NCBI GenBank assembly: GCA_003170995.1
Contig: PMXT01000075.1
Location: forward strand, 1 to 22,417
Source: Actinomycetota bacterium
GTDB lineage: Bacteria > Actinomycetota > Thermoleophilia > Gaiellales > Gaiellaceae
Length of the DNA stretch: 22,417 nucleotides
Direction: 5' to 3'
This document shows positions 919-18,033 of this stretch, piece after piece (the stretch's first letter is position 1; each line of letters starts with the position of its first letter). Position numbers and translations under genes: made by a program. A model generated the notes under the pieces. That model was given only the letters and a program-made list of their open reading frames with translations, ran no database searches and was not told the DNA's origin.

Positions 919-1368
919 TTACTTCCTCTTCAAGGGCGGTAGAGCCGAGATCGTCTCGTGCATCTTGCGGGCCGCGGCGACGAATTTGGGCGAGTCGGCG
1001 GCGCTCATCGTGAACATCTGCACCCGCTCGGGCTCGACTCCGACCGACTCCAGAAGCGCACGGGAAAACTCGATCCGGTCGAGTGCGTGCAGGTTGCCCT
1101 CGCGGTAGTGGCACTGGCCCTCGAGGCAGCCGGCGACGTAGACGCCGTCAGCACCATCGGCGAGCGCTTTGAGTAGATGGAGCGGACTGACCCGGCCGGT
1201 GCAGGGCACGAGCACGCTGCGGATCGTTGTCGGTAACGAGACACGCGCGTTACCGGTCGCATCCGCGGCGGCGTAGGCGCACTCGCGGCAGAAGAAGGCG
1301 ACGATCTTGCGCTCGGCGCCGTCCTCCGTCTCGGGTGCCCGGGTGTTCTCGGCAGCGGTGCTGGTCAC
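919..1368 (-). CDS. mvhD: MvhD-like hydrogenase/Hdr iron-sulfur subunit
   Basis: A 149-residue protein with the MvhD/FlpD signature: FFCRECAYAAAD (Cys27, Cys30), VPCTGRVSP (Cys56), and VAGCLEGQCHYREGN (Cys81, Cys86). In MvhD these cysteines bind a [2Fe-2S] cluster that passes electrons from a hydrogenase, formate dehydrogenase or NAD(P)H-oxidising partner into HdrA. The chosen start is the GTG at 1368, which overlaps the TGA of the upstream hdrA gene (GTGA). No [NiFe]-hydrogenase large subunit is visible in the window, so the electron donor is likely something else. The GltD-like module in the neighbouring HdrA is an obvious candidate. The first 20 residues are a low-complexity acidic extension not expected in the core family. 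Confidence 0.9.
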   Translation of the reverse strand: MTSTAAENTRAPETEDGAERKIVAFFCRECAYAAADATGNARVSLPTTIRSVLVPCTGRVSPLHLLKALADGADGVYVAGCLEGQCHYREGNLHALDRIEFSRALLESVGVEPERVQMFTMSAADSPKFVAAARKMHETISALPPLKRK

Positions 1369-4300
1369 ACCATCACCTCGGCCAGGATCTCCTCGTCCGA
1401 GTAGCCGCCCAGTGTCATCGCGCCCGACGGGCACTCGGCGGCGCAGATCCCGCAACCGCGGCAGGAGTTGGCGTCGACCACCGAGTGCGGGTTGTCGCCC
1501 CCGGAGAGCTTGACGGCGCCTTGCGGGCAAACCGACTCGCAGATGCCGCAGCCGATGCACTGTTCGAGATTCGACGACGCTACCTGTGCCGGCGTCAGCA
1601 CGAACCCGGCCGAGAGCATCGAGACGACGCGCGCGGCGGCCGCCTTGGCTTGAGCGATCGTGTCGGGGATGTTCTTGGGGCCCTGCGCCGTACCGGCGAC
1701 GAAGATCCCGGCTCGCTGCGTGTCGACCGGCTTCAGCTTGGGGTGGTACTCCTTGATGAACCCGGCCGAACCCTGTTGCAGTCCGGCGACGTGGGCGATC
1801 TCGGTCGTCCCGGCCGAGGCCTCGAGACCCGCCGAGAGCACGACCAGGTCGAACAGCTCCTCGTTCTTACGCTTGGTGACGGTGTCCTCGAAGCGCACAC
1901 GCAGGCTTTTGTCGGCCTCCTCCATCACCTCGCCGACGCGGCCGCGCACGTAACGAACGCCGCGCTCCTGCACGAGCCGGTAGTACTCCTCGTGAGACTT
2001 CCCCGGCGCGCGCAGGTCGGTGTAGCCGATGGTGATGTCGACGTCGGGGTAGTGCTGCTTGATCAGCGAGGCGTGCAGGGTCGCGAACAGGCAGCAGATC
2101 GCCGAGCAGTGCTCGTTGCCCGAGGAGGTACAGTCGCGCGAGCCGACGCACTGGAGCATGAAGATCTTCTTCGGGACGGCGCCGTCGGAAGGTCGCTCAA
2201 GCTCGCCGGCGGTCGGCCCGGAAGGTGCGAGTAGGCGAGCGAGTTGGCTCTGAGTGACGACGTTGCTGAAGCGCCCGAAACCGAGTGGGATCTTGCGCCG
2301 GGCATCGAACTCCTTGTGTCCGGTGGCGACGATGATCGCGCCGACGGCGAGCTCCTCGGTCTCCTCCTGCTGATCGAGCTCGATTGCGCCGGCCGGACAG
2401 GCACGGACGCAGGCCTCACACTCCGAGCAGACAGCGCAGGCCAGGCAGCGGCTCGCCTCGGCGATCGCCTCCTCTTCGCTGTAGCCGCCCACGACCTCGG
2501 CCCAGGAAGCGCAGCGATCGGAGCGATCGAGAAGCACAGCTGGAATGCGCTGGCCAACTTCGCGCCGTGCAAGCTCCTCGGCACTGGGACGGGCCTCGGC
2601 CGCCTTTGCCGGCCAGACCTCGAACAGTTTCTCGCCGCGCAGGTAGTTGTGAATCGAGTGCGCCGCGCGCGTACCTGCCGCGATCGCCTCGATCGCAGTC
2701 CAGCCGCCTGTGGCCGCGGCATCGCCGCCCGCGAAAACCCCGCTCTTGCCGGTCATCAGGGTGTCGCGATCGATCCGTATCTGACCCTTCTCGACAGAGA
2801 CGTCCTCGCAGCCCTCGAGGAAGTCGCAGACGATGTCCTGCCCGATCGCAAGAACGACCGTGTCGGCTTCGATCTCGGTCACGTCGCCCTCGATCGGAAC
2901 GGGACGGCGCCGGCCCGACGAATCGGGCTCACCAAGCTTGCAGCGCTGTAGCTTGAGCGCCGAGACGCGTCCCTTCTTTCCGACGATCTCGAGCGGAGCA
3001 ACCAGGAACTCGACCTTCAGACCTTCCTCGATCGCCTGCTCGTCCTCCTCGCCGAGAGCCGGCATCTCCGCGCGCGTCCTACGGTAGACGAGCGTGACGT
3101 TGGGCTCGCGACCGGAGGTTTGTTGCAGGCGGATGGCACTGCGAGCGGCGTCGAGCGCCACGTCGCCGCCACCGATGACGACAACCCGATCGCCAACCGA
3201 GACCGACTTGCCGAGATTGAGCCGGCGCAGAAACTCGACCGCGCGCTCGGTGCCCTCCAGCTCCGCGCCCGTAATCTCGACCTCGCTCGACTTCTGCAGT
3301 CCAACGGCGAGGAAAGCGGCGCCATATCCGTTTTCGAGCAGCCCGTCGACAGTGAAGTCCTTACCAGCCCGCTGCCCGAGCTTGAGCTCTACGCCGAGCG
3401 CCGTAATTTGATCGATCTCGCGCTCGAGCACGTCCTTGGGCAAGCGGTAGTCGGGAATGCCCGTCTTCAGCATCCCGCCGGCGACCGGCAGCGCCTCGAA
3501 GACGGTGGTCCGGTAGCCAAGCTTGGCAAGGTCGCGAGCGCAGGTGAGGCCGGCCGGGCCGGCACCGATTATCGCCACCTTCTCGGAGTGGATGACCGGC
3601 ACCTTCTCGATCACCGTCTCGGGTCCAACGTGGTCGGCGACAAAGCGCTTCAGCGCCGCGATCGCAACCGGCTCGTCAACCTCGCCGCGGGCGCACGCGC
3701 GCTCGCAGGGATGCGTGCAGATTCGACCGCAAACGGAGGGGAAGGGATTGGGGCCTGAGGCGACGCGATAAGCCTCGTCGAAGCGTCCCTCGGCGACAAG
3801 CGCCACGTAACCCTGGGCCGAGGTCCCGGCCGGGCAGGCCGACTTGCACGGTGCAGGCCCGCGCTTGTCGATCGCGTACAGCGACGGCACCGCGTTTGCG
3901 AACGGCCGCGAGATCGCCTTGCGCTTGGTGACGCCGAGCTCGAACTCACTCGAGACCGAGACCGGGCAGGCCGCGGTGCAGTCGTCGCAACCGACGCAGG
4001 CCTCGCTGACGAAGCGCGGCCGCTGGCGCAACTTGACCCTGAACTCGCCCGGTGGGCCCGAGATCTCGGTCACGTCGGTGAGTGTGCGAATGTGGATGCG
4101 CGGATCGAGGGCAGCTCCGGTCAGCTGCGGCGCGAGCGAGCACATGGCGCAGTCCTCGGTGGGGAAGGTCTTGGAGAGCCGGGCCATGTAGCCGCCAAGC
4201 GACTGCTCGCGCTCGACGAGGTGCACGTCGATACCGGCGCCGGACAGTTCCTCGGCGGCCGTGATACCTGCGATACCGCCACCGACAACCAGCGCCGAGC

Positions 4301-4721
4301 GGTGCAAGAAGGTGCGACCGCGCGGCAGATCCGACTGGAAGCGCGCTCGGGCAACCGCGGCCGAGACGATCTTCTCGGCCTTGAGTTGCGCCTTCGCCGG
4401 CTCGTCGCGGTGGATGAACGAGCAGCCCTCGCGCAGGTTGCCGAAGGCGACGGCGTTCTCGCCCAGCCTCAGCTCACGCGCGATCCGCTCGAAGGTCGGA
4501 CCCTGGAAACGGCGCGAGCAGGCGCCGATCACGATGCGATCGAGCCCACGCTCCTCAACCGCCTGCTCGATCATGCGGCGCCCCTCGGTGCCGCACATGA
4601 ACTGGTTGCGCGAGATCGAGACGACGCCGTCGTGAGTCCTGGCCGAGTCGGCCAGCGAGTCGAGGTCGAGAACTCCGGAGATGTTGCCTCCGCACTCGCA
4701 GAGGAAGACGCCACAGCGCAT
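1365..4721 (-). CDS. hdrA: HdrA fused internally to a GltD/NfnB-like NAD(P)H oxidoreductase module
   Basis: A large flavoprotein of 1118 residues. HdrA part 1: a CxC at Cys8/Cys10, an FAD Rossmann motif (VVGGGIAG, about 145-152), CAMC at 191-194 and a [4Fe-4S] motif at Cys242, 245, 248 and 252. Next comes a full GltD-like module (about 290-700): N-terminal cluster cysteines 292, 296, 331, 335, 339 and 343 around NPFPSVCGR, an FAD motif GAGPAG at 386-391, a second Rossmann fold for NAD(P)H (IGGGDVALDAA, about 516-526) and YRRTRAEMPA (546-555). HdrA then resumes at a cysteine-rich stretch (Cys759-775, ending CVRACPAGAIEL), with its FAD half and GIFVAGTAQGPKNIPD (1005-1020). Two more [4Fe-4S] motifs close it (1055-1065 and 1087-1097). 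The ATG at 4721 overlaps the hdrB stop by one base (TGATG). A longer reading frame exists upstream but overlaps hdrB. The protein can plausibly exchange electrons with NAD(P)H directly; substrates are unknown. Confidence 0.93.
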   Translation of the reverse strand: MRCGVFLCECGGNISGVLDLDSLADSARTHDGVVSISRNQFMCGTEGRRMIEQAVEERGLDRIVIGACSRRFQGPTFERIARELRLGENAVAFGNLREGCSFIHRDEPAKAQLKAEKIVSAAVARARFQSDLPRGRTFLHRSALVVGGGIAGITAAEELSGAGIDVHLVEREQSLGGYMARLSKTFPTEDCAMCSLAPQLTGAALDPRIHIRTLTDVTEISGPPGEFRVKLRQRPRFVSEACVGCDDCTAACPVSVSSEFELGVTKRKAISRPFANAVPSLYAIDKRGPAPCKSACPAGTSAQGYVALVAEGRFDEAYRVASGPNPFPSVCGRICTHPCERACARGEVDEPVAIAALKRFVADHVGPETVIEKVPVIHSEKVAIIGAGPAGLTCARDLAKLGYRTTVFEALPVAGGMLKTGIPDYRLPKDVLEREIDQITALGVELKLGQRAGKDFTVDGLLENGYGAAFLAVGLQKSSEVEITGAELEGTERAVEFLRRLNLGKSVSVGDRVVVIGGGDVALDAARSAIRLQQTSGREPNVTLVYRRTRAEMPALGEEDEQAIEEGLKVEFLVAPLEIVGKKGRVSALKLQRCKLGEPDSSGRRRPVPIEGDVTEIEADTVVLAIGQDIVCDFLEGCEDVSVEKGQIRIDRDTLMTGKSGVFAGGDAAATGGWTAIEAIAAGTRAAHSIHNYLRGEKLFEVWPAKAAEARPSAEELARREVGQRIPAVLLDRSDRCASWAEVVGGYSEEEAIAEASRCLACAVCSECEACVRACPAGAIELDQQEETEELAVGAIIVATGHKEFDARRKIPLGFGRFSNVVTQSQLARLLAPSGPTAGELERPSDGAVPKKIFMLQCVGSRDCTSSGNEHCSAICCLFATLHASLIKQHYPDVDITIGYTDLRAPGKSHEEYYRLVQERGVRYVRGRVGEVMEEADKSLRVRFEDTVTKRKNEELFDLVVLSAGLEASAGTTEIAHVAGLQQGSAGFIKEYHPKLKPVDTQRAGIFVAGTAQGPKNIPDTIAQAKAAAARVVSMLSAGFVLTPAQVASSNLEQCIGCGICESVCPQGAVKLSGGDNPHSVVDANSCRGCGICAAECPSGAMTLGGYSDEEILAEVMV

Positions 4722-5674
4722 CAGACCACCGCTCTTTCCCGCGCGCCGATCCGCTCCAGGATCGGCTCTACGTTCTGGGAGTGGGCCTTGACGCCGCAGA
4801 CCGTGTCGGGATCGGCCCCGAGCGCGAGCGCCACCAGCTGCTGGGTATGCAGGTGGACGAACGGGTACTCCTCGTTCGCGCTCTGCTCGATGATCGAGTG
4901 GTGACGGTCGAACTGGAGGGCGCAGTTCGGGCACATGTGCACGCAGACGTCAATCTTCTCCTCTGCGAGCCGCCGCAACTTCTGGCGCGTCACCGCAACC
5001 GAGATGGAGGGATTGACAAAGCGCTGGCGGAAGCCGGCGCCGCAGTGAGTCGTCTTCTCGTTGTAGTTGCCGGTCTTGATCACCCCGGTCGGCTCGAGCA
5101 GGTCCTCGGGGATCATGAAGTTCTCGGCATCGCCCACAACCTCATCGGGGAAGACCTTGCAGTAGTGGCAGGCGGGGTGGGTGGCGACCTTGATCCCGTC
5201 CAGGCGGCGCTTGATCAGCCCCGGGATCGAGTGATGGCGGCTCCAGAGGATCTCGAGCGTGTGCATGTGCCGGATCGTGCCGGCGACCTCGTCGTTGTAC
5301 TCGCGCCCGATCTTGGCCAGCGCTTTGTTCGATTCTTTGCGAAACTCGGGCACCTCGAGCACGTTGCGCGACTTCTTGTTGATCGCGTAACAGGTCGAGC
5401 AGAGGTAGCTCTGGATCGGATGCCCGGCCTCGACCGCGACGCAGGCGTTACGCGCCGCGACTCCTAGTGTGGTCGGAAACGGCAGCAGGTCTGAGTAGTA
5501 GCCGAGCCCGGTGCAGCAGGTCTGGTCGGGGTTGACGATGTACTCGACGTCGAAGCGATCGAACAGCCACTTCGACGCCGACTCCACGCCGGGGTACTCG
5601 GTCGTGACCAAGCAGCTTCGGAAAAGCTGGACACCGCCGGTGATCGGCTCGATGTCCGGAGTTGTTGGTGCCAT
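4721..5674 (-). CDS. hdrB: HdrB-like heterodisulfide reductase subunit (CCG domains)
   Basis: A 317-residue protein with two CCG-type repeats. The first is complete: Cys21, Cys53-Cys54, Cys92 and Cys95 (C-x31-CC-x37-CxxC), which in HdrB binds a noncubane [4Fe-4S] cluster. The second has Cys169, His210-Cys211, Cys248 and Cys251, so the first cysteine of its CC pair is histidine (THCGAG). In the family, HdrB reduces a disulfide such as CoM-S-S-CoB at these clusters. An actinobacterium is unlikely to have those coenzymes, so the real substrate is unknown. The ATG at 5674 is preferred because it has a good Shine-Dalgarno (AGAGAGG, 7 bases away) and lies just downstream of a strong promoter; a longer frame upstream crosses that promoter. 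This is the first gene of the operon and overlaps hdrA by one base. Confidence 0.92.
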   Translation of the reverse strand: MAPTTPDIEPITGGVQLFRSCLVTTEYPGVESASKWLFDRFDVEYIVNPDQTCCTGLGYYSDLLPFPTTLGVAARNACVAVEAGHPIQSYLCSTCYAINKKSRNVLEVPEFRKESNKALAKIGREYNDEVAGTIRHMHTLEILWSRHHSIPGLIKRRLDGIKVATHPACHYCKVFPDEVVGDAENFMIPEDLLEPTGVIKTGNYNEKTTHCGAGFRQRFVNPSISVAVTRQKLRRLAEEKIDVCVHMCPNCALQFDRHHSIIEQSANEEYPFVHLHTQQLVALALGADPDTVCGVKAHSQNVEPILERIGARERAVV

Positions 5675-7954: not shown

Positions 7955-7974
7955 GGATTCCGCCTACGGAATCC
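7955..7974 (-). terminator. Hairpin at the end of sufD (weak terminator candidate)
   Basis: A perfect 8-base inverted repeat, GGATTCCG and CGGAATCC, encloses a 4-base loop. The sufD stop codon (TAG, 7966-7964) starts inside the loop. There is no T-run after it, so it is not a classical intrinsic terminator. It could protect the 3' end of the suf mRNA or lower read-through into the gene at 7899. Confidence 0.35.
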
Positions 7975-9154
7975 GCGCCTCGAGTGCGTTTGCCAGCGCC
8001 TCGCGAATCGGCTCGCGCTCGATCCGGTCGAGCGCCTGGGCGAAGAAGCCGTGCACGATCAGGCGCTCGGCCTCGCTCGCCGGTAAGCCGCGGCTCATCA
8101 GGTAGAAGAGCTGCTCGCGATCGACCTGGCCGACCGTGACGCCGTGGCTGCAGCGAACGTCGTTGGCCAGGATCTCGAGCCCAGGAATCGCGTTGGCGTG
8201 CGCCTGGCGCGAGAGCAGGAGATTGCGGTTCTCCTGGTAGGCGTCCGTGCCCTGCGCCTCGGGCTCGACCCGGATCATGCCGCGCCAGACCGTCGTCGCC
8301 TCGTCGCGCAGGGCGCCGCGGAAGAGGAAGTCGGAGTTGGTGCGCGGGCCCGCGTGCTCCTGATAGGTGTCGAAGTCGAGGTGCTGCGAGCCGTCGGCGA
8401 AGTAGACGCCGGTCACGCGCGAGGTCGCGCCCACACCGGCGAGATCGTTATAGATCCAGGTCTTGCTCTTCTTCGAACCGAGCCCGGCGCAGACCCAGTC
8501 GAGCTCGCAGTCGCGCTCCAGCCGGGCGTGCTGACGACTGAAGTGCCAACCCCGGCACGAGAGCCGCTGAACCGAAACAAACTCCAGCTTGGCGCCGGCC
8601 CCGACGTGGATCTCGACGGCGCAATTCGTCAGAGCATGGAGGTCTTCCCCCGCCGAGACGTGCTCCTCGATCAGCGTGAAGCGGCTGTTCTCTCCGGCGA
8701 CGATGAGCAGCCGGGTCGGCAGCGAGCCGTTCGGAACGGTGCTCTCGATCCGCACGTGCAGTGGTTTCTCTAGCTCCACTCCGGCCGGTACCTCGACCAG
8801 TAAACCGTGCCTCCAGAAGGCGGCGTTGGCAGCCGCGATCTTGTCGTCCGCCTCGATCAGCGCGCCGATGCGCTTGTCCTTCTCCCCGAGCGGCGCGAAG
8901 ACGATTCCCTCGGGCGCCGCGAGAATCTCGACCCCGCTTTCGTCAATTCGCGCGTCTCCGGCCAGCTCGAGCTCGACCAGCGGCGCGATCTTGGCCGACC
9001 GAGCTTCGTCCGCGACCGGGTAGGCGTCGAGGTCGAGACCGGCCAGATCGGTGAAGCGCCAGCCCTCTTCCGAGGTCGTCGGTAGCGGCAGCTCGCGGTA
9101 GCGCTTGAGCGCGGCGGCGCGCTTCATCGCGAGGCGTATCTCCGCATCAGCCAA
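7964..9154 (-). CDS. sufD: SufD, Fe-S cluster assembly scaffold subunit
   Basis: A 396-residue SufD. It has the N-terminal [10 protein letters not shown] block (residues 28-37), the beta-helix core, and the C-terminal RCSHGVTVG motif. His337 in this motif corresponds to the SufD histidine (E. coli His360) needed for cluster assembly at the SufB-SufD interface. The [10 protein letters not shown] block follows, as in the family. The start taken is a TTG at 9154, which overlaps the sufB stop by 8 bases and has GGAAGG 5 bases upstream. An in-frame ATG at 9127 (giving 387 residues) is the alternative and has only a distant GGAG. Acts in the cytoplasm in the SufBC2D complex. Confidence 0.95.
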
Positions 9155-10556
9155 CGCTCCCTTCCATCTGCAGCTGGATCAGACGGTTCATCTCGACGGC
9201 GTACTCGAGCGGTAGCTCCTTGGTGATCGGCTCTACGAAGCCCGAGACGATCATCGAGCTGGCCTCCGACTCCGACAGGCCTCGGCTCATCAGGTAGAAG
9301 AGCTGTTCCTCGCCGATCTTCGAGACCGTCGCCTCGTGCTCGACCTCGGCGTCGGACTCGTGCACGCGGATCGTCGGATAGGTGTCGGAGCGCGACTCCT
9401 CGTCGAGGATCAGCGCATCGCAGACGACCTTCGATTTCGCCCCGCGCGCGCCGTTCGCGACGTTGACAAGGCCACGGTAGCCGGCCCGCCCGCCGCCGCG
9501 CGAGATCGACTTGGCCGTGATCAAGCTTGTGGTGTTCGGAGCCGCATGCACGGCCTTGGCGCCGGTGTCCTGATGTTGGCCCGGGCCGGCGAAGGCGATC
9601 GATAGCACCTCACCGTGCGCGCCCTCGCCGGTCAGCCAGATGGCCGGGTACTTCATCGTCAGCTTCGAGCCGAGGTTGCCGTCCACCCACTCGACTGTCG
9701 CGTTCTCCTGGGCGACGGCGCGCTTGGTGACGAGGTTGTAGACGTTGGTCGACCAGTTCTGAATCGTCGTGTAGCGGCAGCGCCCGCCCGGCTTGACGAT
9801 GATCTCGACCACGGCCGCGTGCAGCGAGTCGCTGGAGTAGATCGGAGCTGTACAGCCCTCCACGTAGTGCACGAACGCCCCCTCGTCCACGACGATCAGG
9901 GTGCGCTCGAACTGGCCCATGTTCTCGGCGTTGATGCGGAAGTAGGCCTGTAGCGGCATCTCGACCTTGACGCCCGGCGGCACGTAGATGAAGGAGCCAC
10001 CCGACCAGACCGCCGTGTTGAGCGCCGCGAACTTGTTGTCGCGGAAGGGAACGACCGTGCCGAAGTGCTCGCGCACGATCTCCTCGTGCTGGCGCAGGCC
10101 GACGTCCATGCCTAGGAAGACGACGCCCTGGCGCACCAGCTCTTCCTGCAGCTTGTGGTAGACGACCTCCGACTCGTACTGAGCGCCCACTCCGGCCAGG
10201 TATTTCTTCTCGGCCTCGGGGATACCGAGCCGATCCCAGGTCTGCTTGATATCCGGCGGCAGCTCCTCCCAGGAGGAGGCCTCGGTCTCGGTCGGCTTGA
10301 CGTAGTAGAAGATCGAGTCGAAGTCGATCTTCGAGAGGTCGCCACCCCATTCCGGTACGGGCCGAGTGAGGAAGTGCTCGTAGGCCTGGAGCCGGCGCTC
10401 GAGCATCCAGTCGGACTCGCCCTTCTGCGCCGAGATCGTCTCGACCACCTCGCGGGTGAGCCCGCGCCCGGTGCTAAACGTCGGCTTGTCGGTCGTGTGG
10501 AAGCCGTACTTGTAATCGCGCCCGATCTGCGAGACGTCTGTCTCGGGCTTTTTCAC
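9147..10556 (-). CDS. sufB: SufB, Fe-S cluster assembly scaffold subunit
   Basis: A 469-residue SufB of normal length. Typical blocks are [31 protein letters not shown] (Cys235), [13 protein letters not shown] and the C-terminal [10 protein letters not shown]. Cys379 in KVVCDALIL lines up with E. coli SufB Cys405, the residue on which the nascent cluster or sulfur is handled, and His407/Glu408 lie the expected distance after it. The start is a GTG at 10556 that shares one base with the sufC stop (TAGTG), so translation is coupled. With SufC and SufD it builds [4Fe-4S] clusters. This suits a genome that also needs many clusters for the Hdr operon nearby. Confidence 0.97.
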
Positions 10557-11335
10557 TAGCGGTCTCCGCTGCTCGCTTCGGGGAGATAGGCGTCGTAGCC
10601 TTCCGACTCCAGTTGCTCGGCCAGCTCGGGGCCACCCTCGGCGACGAAACGACCGCCGGCGAAGACATGCACGAAATCGGGGCGTATGTAATTGAGGATG
10701 CGCTGGTAGTGGGTGATGACGATGGCGCCCAGCTCGGGCCCGATCAGATCGCTGACACCGCCGGCGATCGTCTTCAGGGCGTCGATGTCGAGGCCGGAGT
10801 CGGTCTCATCGAGAACCGCGAGGCGCGGATGTAGGAGCGCCAGCTGGAGGATCTCGATCCTCTTCTTCTCTCCGCCCGAGAAGCCGTCGTTCAGGTAGCG
10901 GCCGAGCAGCTCGCGCGGCACCTTCAGCCGCTCAGTCGCAGCCGCCAGCTGCTTGCGAAACTCGGGAATCGGAATCGGATCGTCTTCACCACCGGCTCGC
11001 GCCTTGCGCAGCGCGTTGATCGCCGAGCGCAGGAAGCTCGTCACCGTTACGCCCGGGATCGCGTAGGGGTACTGAAAGGCTAGAAACAGTCCTTGCTGAG
11101 CGCGCTCGTCGGGCCCCAGCTCGAGCAGGCTCTTGCCGCCTAAGAGCACGTCGCCGGAGGTGATCTGATAGGCGGGATGACCCATCAGCGCGTGCGCGAG
11201 CGTGGACTTGCCCGAGCCGTTCGGGCCCATGATCGCGTGCACCTCGCCGCCTTCGACCGAGAGGTCGATGCCCTTAACGATTTCGCTGCCGTCGCTCAGA
11301 GCGACGTGAAGATCTCTTATCTCGAGTAGTGCCAT
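10556..11335 (-). CDS. sufC: SufC, ATPase of the Suf Fe-S assembly complex
   Basis: A 259-residue ABC-type ATPase with Walker [10 protein letters not shown] (37-45), the signature FSGGEKKR (152-159), and Walker B with the SufC-specific [12 protein letters not shown] (172-183), followed by HYQRIL. Length and motifs fit SufC closely; ordinary transporter ATPases lack the DETDSGLD sequence. It is the first gene of the sufCBD set. The ATG at 11335 is directly preceded by AAGGA, too close to act as a Shine-Dalgarno; a GGGAAGG 11 bases upstream is more plausible. No SufR-type regulator, SufS desulfurase or SufU is visible in the window. A weak -10-like TAGAGT lies at 11398-11393 without a good -35 box. 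Confidence 0.97.
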
Positions 11336-17448: not shown

Positions 17449-18033
17449 TCAAGAACCGAGCTTCTTATGATTGGGCGGCGGTACGACGGGAGTATCCGCT
17501 TCAACAAACTCGCGGTAACGGTCGCGCCAACCGTCGCCACCCCCGAGCACGCCGGCAAGAAGCCGCTCATTCAGGAATCGCTGAGCCGGGTCGATGCCGA
17601 CGGTCGCGCGATAACTACTCCACTTCCATGCCGACGGCTCTTGACACAGACCGGCCCGAACTGGGTTGTGTGCGACGTAACGGCAGGCGGTCAGCAGATA
17701 GGAGTCGTTGTCGATCAACTGGGCCATGAACCTGTTACGAAACAGGTGCGCACTCCGCTCGTGAATCGCGTTGAATCGCTTCGAGTAGCCGCCGTTAAGC
17801 TCCTGCATCACAGCGGAAAGGCGCGCGTCCGGAGTTATTACGATCAGGTGGTAGTGGTTGTCCATCAGGCAGTACGCAAGGCATGGAAGTCGATAACGCT
17901 CGACCGTCAGCTGGAGTCGTTCTAAAAAGAGCTCGCGATCCTCATCGAGCCGAAAGATGGGCCTTCTATCGCTCCCTCGGGAGGCGACGTGATAGATGCT
18001 GTTCGGGAGGAATATGCGGAGAGGGCGGCCCAT
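17449..18033 (-). mobile_element. RAYT: REP-associated tyrosine transposase (TnpA_REP / Y1_Tnp family)
   Basis: A 194-residue, full-length Y1 transposase-like protein. It shows YHVASRGSDRRPIF (14-27), the metal-binding HUH triad in LMDNHYHLIV (His60 and His62), the catalytic tyrosine in GGYSKRFN (Tyr83), HLFRNRF, and the family's YVAHNPVRAGL (119-129) and WKWSSY (136-141) blocks. RAYTs nick single-stranded DNA at REP palindromes and are usually single-copy domesticated genes instead of free insertion sequences. All key residues are present, so it may be active. REP-like repeats flank it at 17401-17437 and 18132-18161. The ATG at 18033 has TAGGCT 6 bases upstream and no good Shine-Dalgarno, so it may be leaderless. 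Confidence 0.93.

Follow-up and report, generated by a model that had tools for sequence, protein, structure and literature searches.

A clade of HdrA–GltD fusion proteins lacks both residues that mark a bifurcating HdrA flavin and is encoded beside a second, lysine-bearing HdrA

When an HdrA chain carries a complete GltD/NfnB-like NAD(P)H module of its own, which of its flavins, if any, bifurcates electrons? The question is raised by an hdrA–GltD fusion gene on contig PMXT01000075.1 of an Actinomycetota metagenome-assembled genome (MAG; GCA_003170995.1). The window, as we call the stretch of DNA that was analysed, is this whole contig of 22,417 nucleotides; the MAG is 1.91 Mb in size and 84% complete, and its nearest relatives are labelled Gaiellaceae, Thermoleophilia, Actinomycetota. 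The fusion open reading frame (ORF) lies on the minus strand, with its ATG at 4721 and its stop ending at 1365, and encodes 1118 amino acids. A preliminary description had placed one NAD(P)H site and two flavin adenine dinucleotide (FAD) sites in this chain and proposed that it bifurcates electrons by itself, with no separate partner. Our analysis supports the three sites. The single-chain mechanism is not supported: both published bifurcation residues are lost from the HdrA flavin site (now Leu882 and Ala828), and the GltD part has a lysine, Lys358, as in Stn; the operon, moreover, encodes likely partners, namely HdrB, MvhD, a ferredoxin and a second HdrA, to which relatives add an HdrD-like protein and HdrC. 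We propose, with a confidence that is evenly balanced, that the fusion takes in NAD(P)H electrons for a heterodisulfide-reductase-like complex with two HdrAs, and that any bifurcation takes place on the partner HdrA.

The first line of evidence comes from the HdrA flavin site. Two papers describe K409 and E356 (numbered as in HdrA of M. thermolithotrophicus) as the marks of a bifurcating HdrA flavin (PMC9430772, PMC12054007). We aligned the window protein and 119 of the best 120 of 7219 database relatives (P0116, shorter than 1050 amino acids, was omitted) with 20 second HdrAs (L003, L008–L012, L014–L026 and L029). Throughout these 120 fusions, the window protein and the 119 among the relatives listed, the K409 position is Leu, and the E356 position is Ala (94), Ser (25) or Gly (1), so that no clade member keeps either residue. 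The assignment of Leu882 is not in doubt, because the alignment runs without a gap from the conserved Cys877 to this residue. Beside the lost lysine, residue 883 is His in 103 of the 120 and Asn in the other 17. The window protein retains every Fe-S cysteine of the HdrA domains, and these are also kept across the clade save for a few gaps and one Trp in the N-terminal cluster. The database proteins, named loci and survey genomes used here overlap, and the 120 fusions are not independent events; a single loss in an ancestor would explain all of the replacements.

As far as the sequences could be read, this loss appears to be peculiar to the window's clade. Surveying 299 class genomes that were sampled from a larger group, we found fusions of about 1490 amino acids with two HdrA flavin domains and the GltD module in the first, as in Moorella (type ii), and fusions of about 950 amino acids that have no N- or C-terminal cluster domains and are followed by a separate second HdrA (type iii). 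A survey of 296 genomes of the phylum added full-length fusions at 40–43% identity (type iv). Full-length fusions were also present in 12 of 201 genomes of an archaeal class to which the Bathyarchaeota-titled record L034 belongs, several HdrA–GltD fusions in one Desulfosarcina MAG and one of type iii in a Dormibacterota MAG. The spread of the architecture, which the preliminary description had left open, thus covers the window's class and phylum, Dormibacterota- and Desulfosarcina-labelled MAGs and an archaeal class. All 38 readable fusions outside the clade, a subset of those found, have Lys at the K409 position and Glu or Asp at the E356 position: 7/7 of type ii, 10/10 of type iii, 7/7 of type iv (readable in seven of ten, the other three ending before the site), 4/4 from Desulfosarcina and 10/10 from archaea (of 12). 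The second half of the type ii proteins has both Glu and Lys in five of six cases, the sixth being cut. Type iii is another two-gene system from the same bacterial class, and there the lysine is on the opposite member: the GltD-bearing HdrA keeps it in 8/8 pairs and the partner HdrA has His in 8/8. As far as read, then, one of the two HdrAs appears to hold the lysine in both two-gene types. MvhD directly follows the type iv fusion in six of the seven loci with the gene end present (none in L076), and no second HdrA was seen on the fetched stretches, several of which are short. Separately, the type iii matches L042, L054 and L055 each contain one in-frame TGA, which may be a selenocysteine codon or a real stop.

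The second line of evidence is the constant operon around the fusion. Among 28 loci in named records, the fusion is present in 25 (L008–L032), and L033–L035 have only partial matches. The hdrB gene precedes it in 25/25 (incomplete or in two frames in L021, L022 and L024), and MvhD, the ferredoxin and the second HdrA follow it in 21/21, the other four contigs ending inside the fusion. Downstream (3') of the second HdrA, a homologous gene is found in 14/14 gene-called loci and a further gene in 11 of these 14. A family scan of L010 identified HdrC-type 4Fe-4S motifs in the first of these genes, and the next as HdrC. The name HdrD-like for the first reflects its two sets of CCG-type cysteines, which are conserved in 13/13 aligned sequences, although the same scan reported no CCG domain in it at E 1e-6. 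The second HdrA of L010 ends in an MvhD/FlpD domain. Across the clade, the second HdrA has Lys at the K409 position in 20/20 and retains the inserted-ferredoxin cysteines in 19/20, with one row gapped at motif I. In the MAG of the window, contig C22 encodes the later, K409-bearing part of a second HdrA without GltD, followed by HdrD-like and HdrC genes.

A third line comes from the GltD module, whose active site appears to be closer to that of Stn and NfnABC than to that of NfnB. Lys358 stands at the place of the StnC cluster ligand K170, and Arg426, invariant in 120/120 clade members, aligns with R187 of NfnB and R239 of StnC; two Desulfosarcina rows of type ii have His at position 358. StnC K170 is reported to ligate the cluster in one state only, with Cys114 replacing it in the other, and the authors argue from structure and mutants that the StnC FAD is non-bifurcating (PMC10482914). 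The NAD(P)H Rossmann motif of the module is GxGxxA in 120/120, and its FAD motif is GxGxxG. A YRR stretch is present in 89 of the 120, including the window protein, with an acidic variant in 26 and other residues in 5; from GltD/NfnB chemistry, we take this stretch to be a mark of NADPH. For type III HdrA, a GXGXXG nucleotide motif has been taken to indicate a preference for NAD, although the passages available do not specify which motif is meant.

Taken together, these observations suggest how such a complex might work. The FAD of the GltD module would be reduced by NADPH (by NADH in some members). Its electrons would then travel singly along the GltD clusters to the neighbouring inserted ferredoxin and onward through the fusion, in which the HdrA flavin would be an ordinary relay. 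At the partner HdrA they would be split: one branch would lead to ferredoxin through the partner's inserted ferredoxin, the other to an acceptor of thiol/disulfide type that would be reduced at HdrB or at the HdrD-like protein. Confurcation to NADPH, the reverse of this scheme, would be equally possible. We infer that the partner HdrA is the site of bifurcation. The reading rests on the loss of K409 and E356 from every clade fusion examined, with the Fe-S cysteines largely kept, while the partner keeps the lysine, on the retention of Lys and Glu/Asp in all readable fusions outside the clade together with the reversed roles in type iii, on the StnC-like pair Lys358 and Arg426, on an operon order that is constant from HdrB to the second HdrA and on to the HdrD-like gene, and on a predicted structure in which the HdrA core fold persists across the insert. 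More specifically, and tentatively, since we put its chances a little below even, the two paralogues may have divided the labour: the NAD(P)H-oxidizing HdrA would have given up bifurcation and become the intake, and the second, MvhD-fused HdrA would perform it as the splitter. If so, an intake module and a bifurcating flavin can be re-paired in evolution.

Several observations weigh against this proposal. The main one is that the second HdrAs have Ala (16), Ser (3) or Thr (1) in the E356 column, so that the full published criterion is not satisfied by the partner; in the eight that were printed, a Glu stands one place after this column and a Glu or Asp two places before it. In HdrB, an invariant His210 replaces Cys193 of 5ODC_B, in the C-terminal cluster motif, in 25/25 aligned HdrBs, the window's among them. 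The likeness to Stn is incomplete, as the position of StnC Cys114 is Ala302 in the window protein. Finally, the window's own second HdrA ends after 161 residues, and positions 1–214 of the window and 1–211 of C22 overlap inside the second HdrA at only 91% DNA identity, which indicates that C22 comes from another strain. The bin seems to mix strains.

Some of these points would fit a complex that does not bifurcate at all, a plain NAD(P)H-dependent reductase of a disulfide or another acceptor in which all flavins are relays. The absence of E356 from both HdrAs and of K409 from the fusion speaks for this, the His in place of an HdrB cluster cysteine points the same way, and non-bifurcating HdrA complexes exist (PMC9430772). 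This alternative is nevertheless unlikely in our judgement, as the partner HdrA keeps both the lysine and, with one gapped row, the inserted-ferredoxin cysteines. The genomic setting is also one in which bifurcation would be useful: all six examined genomes of the genus encode a POR-family ferredoxin oxidoreductase, and COX1 was found in 0/6, three of the six being less than 90% complete.

A second alternative, that the FAD of the GltD module is the bifurcating flavin, as in NfnB, strikes us as improbable. NfnB is among the relatives of the module and its R187 has an invariant counterpart in Arg426, but StnC, with an FAD that its authors regard as non-bifurcating, has the same arginine. The residue at the cluster-ligand position is also shared with StnC, being Lys where NfnB has Glu; in both sequence and structure the module matches NfnABC and Stn chains best, and no NfnA-type partner was found among the annotated operon genes. 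Bifurcation at the fusion's own HdrA flavin is quite improbable: the cluster ligands are kept, the His or Asn at residue 883 might substitute for the lost lysine and published type III HdrAs are proposed to bifurcate (PMC12054007), but both diagnostic residues are lost in 120/120 and kept in 38/38 readable fusions of other kinds.

The fusion itself is confirmed. Solved HdrA chains match it in two pieces, residues 2–286/288 and 765 onward (PDB alignment), the counterparts of which in 5ODC_A are residues 5–291 and 293–635; almost no HdrA sequence is therefore missing from the fusion. GltD-like chains match residues ~285–766, namely 9bov_A (NfnABC; E 1.9e-126), 9n5u_A, 8oh5_C (StnC) and 4ylf_B (NfnB), and Pfam places Fer4_20 at 290–365 and Pyr_redox_2 at 381–683, with consistent NCBIfam matches. 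The whole GltD module thus sits between Cys motifs I and II of the HdrA inserted ferredoxin (Table 1), and residues 288–764 match GltD-like chains, not HdrA. This bears out the preliminary description of a complete inserted module. The borders given there, a break at ~285 and a return to HdrA at ~771, shift to 287/288 and 764/765 in the alignment. The chain contains one HdrA flavin domain.

Table 1. Positions of the fusion gene, its parts and the neighbouring operon genes in the window
Feature	Positions	Strand	Basis
hdrA–GltD fusion gene, 1118 aa	1365..4721	-	ORF/translation; PDB, Pfam, NCBIfam matches
HdrA first part, residues 1–287: N-terminal cluster domain, FAD-binding half, first Cys motif of inserted ferredoxin	3861..4721	-	HdrA chain alignment
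Inserted GltD/NfnB-like module, residues 288–764, with own FAD and NAD(P)H folds	2430..3860	-	9bov, 8oh5, 4ylf alignments; Fer4_20 and Pyr_redox_2; predicted structure
HdrA second part, residues 765–1118	1368..2429	-	HdrA chain alignment
Inserted-ferredoxin Cys motif I (C242, C245, C248, C252)	3966..3998	-	Alignment to 5ODC Cys 246–256
Lys358, at the place of StnC K170; Glu in NfnB	3648..3650	-	Alignment; K in 120/120 clade members
NAD(P)H Rossmann motif (GxGxxA) and VYRR site, NADPH-like	3051..3173	-	Alignment
C759-x-x-C762, 'EA.RCLxC' motif, C-terminal end of module	2436..2447	-	Query 448–476 vs 4ylf_B 15–43
Inserted-ferredoxin Cys motif II (C765, C768, C771, C775)	2397..2429	-	Alignment to 5ODC Cys 293–303
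Ala828, at the place of HdrA E356	2238..2240	-	Alignment
Cluster site of HdrA thioredoxin-reductase domain (C858, C872, C876, C877), kept	2091..2150	-	Alignment
Leu882, at the place of HdrA K409 (bifurcation lysine)	2076..2078	-	Alignment
hdrB, 317 aa; His210 at 5ODC_B Cys193	4721..5674	-	Family matches, alignment
mvhD/FlpD-like electron-transfer protein, 149 aa	919..1368	-	PF02662
Small protein with two 4Fe-4S motifs (ferredoxin), 141 aa	482..907	-	Fer4 family matches
Second HdrA start, first 161 aa, cut by contig end	3..485	-	NF040770 match, below cut-off as piece is short; full-length homologues in relatives

The GltD module has six cysteines at its start (C292, C296, C331, C335, C339 and C343) and the pair C759-x-x-C762 at its end. 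This end segment matches the N-terminus of NfnB (4ylf_B 15–43) weakly when taken alone, at 8.6 bits (17.1 bits for 5jca_L), and its 'RCLxC' motif occupies the same place in 9bov_A and 8oh5_C when these are aligned with the rest of the module. The motif thus lies at the end of the module opposite to that in NfnB, where it is N-terminal, as in the Stn and NfnABC chains. HdrA motif II starts three residues after the pair, and this closeness would join the GltD clusters to the HdrA ferredoxin, which would provide a path between the two parts of the chain. An AlphaFold2 model built from 61 aligned proteins (mean predicted local distance difference test score, pLDDT, 83.2; predicted template modelling score 0.74) suggests that the HdrA core fold persists despite the insertion: of the 428 residues of 8rwn_A, 420 can be superposed on model residues 138–1038 at 2.2 Å, and the insert fits 9bov_A at 1.9 Å across 474 residues. 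Full-length HdrA chains superpose on the model only at 10–13 Å, which leaves the positions of the end domains relative to each other unsure; pLDDT is below 50 at residues 132–137, 184–194, 862–871, 905–909, 1039–1045 and 1103–1118.

The occurrence of the fusion elsewhere rules out a misjoined contig, which the preliminary description had named as a possible error: it is found in the 25 named MAG loci and in all six examined genomes of the genus (in G205 as residues 35–988 only), two sets that comprise partly the same genomes. The gene is cut by a contig end in L027, L030, L031 and L032, and its frame is broken in L011, L024, L027 and L032. Fourteen of the 25 named loci carry fen, bog or palsa habitat labels, and their taxon labels include five Dormiibacterota, one Changshengia and one Acidimicrobiaceae. 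The window's own type (pieces at ≥64% identity) was present in 20 of the 299 class genomes: all six from the window's genus and 14 that belong to a different family (f6). A tree of 313 HdrA columns, the K409 and E356 columns included, places the clade on one side of a branch with a Shimodaira–Hasegawa-like approximate likelihood ratio support of 100 and nearest to type ii, with a support of 90 that is not starred. In a tree of the GltD columns, the clade is not a clean group: it encloses two type ii rows (99), a hint that the module has been exchanged. Both trees were quick, without bootstrap, and long branches were flagged in the HdrA tree.

We infer that the host, apparently an uncultured actinobacterium, is an anaerobe and no Wood–Ljungdahl acetogen. 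The latter was rejected on the finding of CdhC in 0/6 genus genomes; a NiFe hydrogenase family is present in 6/6. DsrC is present in 2/6, the window's own genome (84% complete) not being among them, and was rejected as an obligate partner. For actinobacteria in which no heme-copper oxidase was detected, the fusion operon suggests a possible enzyme for coupling NAD(P)H and ferredoxin. One contig, G000:C174 (L089 2280–6657), carries a POR-family gene and ORFs resembling other 2-oxoacid:ferredoxin oxidoreductase subunits, adjoining a stand-alone GltD-like ORF of 459 amino acids. Upstream of the hdr operon in L026 (2679–7885) are HoxF/HoxU-like genes, genes for the NiFe hydrogenase small and large subunits and a maturation protease, and HypA; homologues of this cluster, whose families were scanned on L026, also occur in L022 and L023, and the MAGs are labelled Dormiibacterota or Changshengia. 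In the window itself, ORFs upstream of hdrB (7964–11335) resemble sufD, sufB and sufC by eye, with no family search made, and genes of similar length stand at their place in L008, L010, L011 and L029. An ORF at 17449–18033 resembles, by its sequence, one for a REP-associated tyrosine transposase.

How does the clade compare with known systems? We found no literature on it or on the loss of K409 and E356 in HdrA–GltD fusions, most subscription papers lying outside the search, and it is not described in the available parts of PMC11237513, PMC6085437, PMC6405883, PMC5736913 and PMC7325909. HdrABC–MvhADG (5ODC) has the same HdrA fold, cluster sites and HdrB/MvhD neighbours (with HdrC in relatives of the window), but no NAD(P)H module; in addition, the window fusion has lost the two bifurcation residues and its HdrB has one cysteine changed to His. 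The closest solved relatives of the insert are in Stn and NfnABC (8oh5_C, 9bov_A and 9n5u_A), which share the Lys at the cluster-ligand site, the flavin-side arginine and the C-terminal 'RCLxC' motif. In Stn, however, a NuoG-like part continues the StnC chain and supplies electrons to the FMN at which StnAB bifurcates, whereas the window chain continues as HdrA, and StnC Cys114 has no cysteine counterpart. Nfn differs further in the Glu ligand of NfnB, at which the clade has Lys throughout.

The HdrA of the Moorella thermoacetica MetVF–HdrABC–MvhD complex (HdrA 162.8 kDa; reported NADH:benzyl viologen activity, 190 U/mg) also has a GltD domain that interrupts its thioredoxin-reductase-like domain (PMC9430772). 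There, two flavin domains, both with Glu and Lys, share one chain, whereas the clade has two separate genes. Its MetVF partners also set it apart: no MetV or MetF was found among the annotated operon genes of the clade, in which no genome-wide search was made, and such a partner was rejected.

The closest parallel is type III HdrA (classes A9 and A10), which occurs in methane-metabolizing archaea and was defined from nine archaeal sequences, with NADH proposed as its mid-potential partner (PMC12054007); in HdrA9–11 of ANME-1, a GltD/NfnB-like module is likewise said to interrupt the inserted ferredoxin domain (PMC12054007, PMC9012536). As in type III, the window protein has GltD within the inserted ferredoxin of an HdrA with a single flavin domain, and its full pattern is A10-like. 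K409 and E356, however, are reported in all type III sequences analysed, as a property and not as part of the type definition, and both are lost in the window's clade, which is bacterial and has a second HdrA in its operon, followed in relatives by an HdrD-like gene. A one-off oddity is thus ruled out, the wider architecture being published and widespread. The clade could serve as a natural experiment on two questions: which residues of HdrA are required for bifurcation, and whether two HdrA subunits can share the work. The architecture is already known; what is new is that all clade members examined lack the bifurcation residues and that a partner HdrA bears the lysine.

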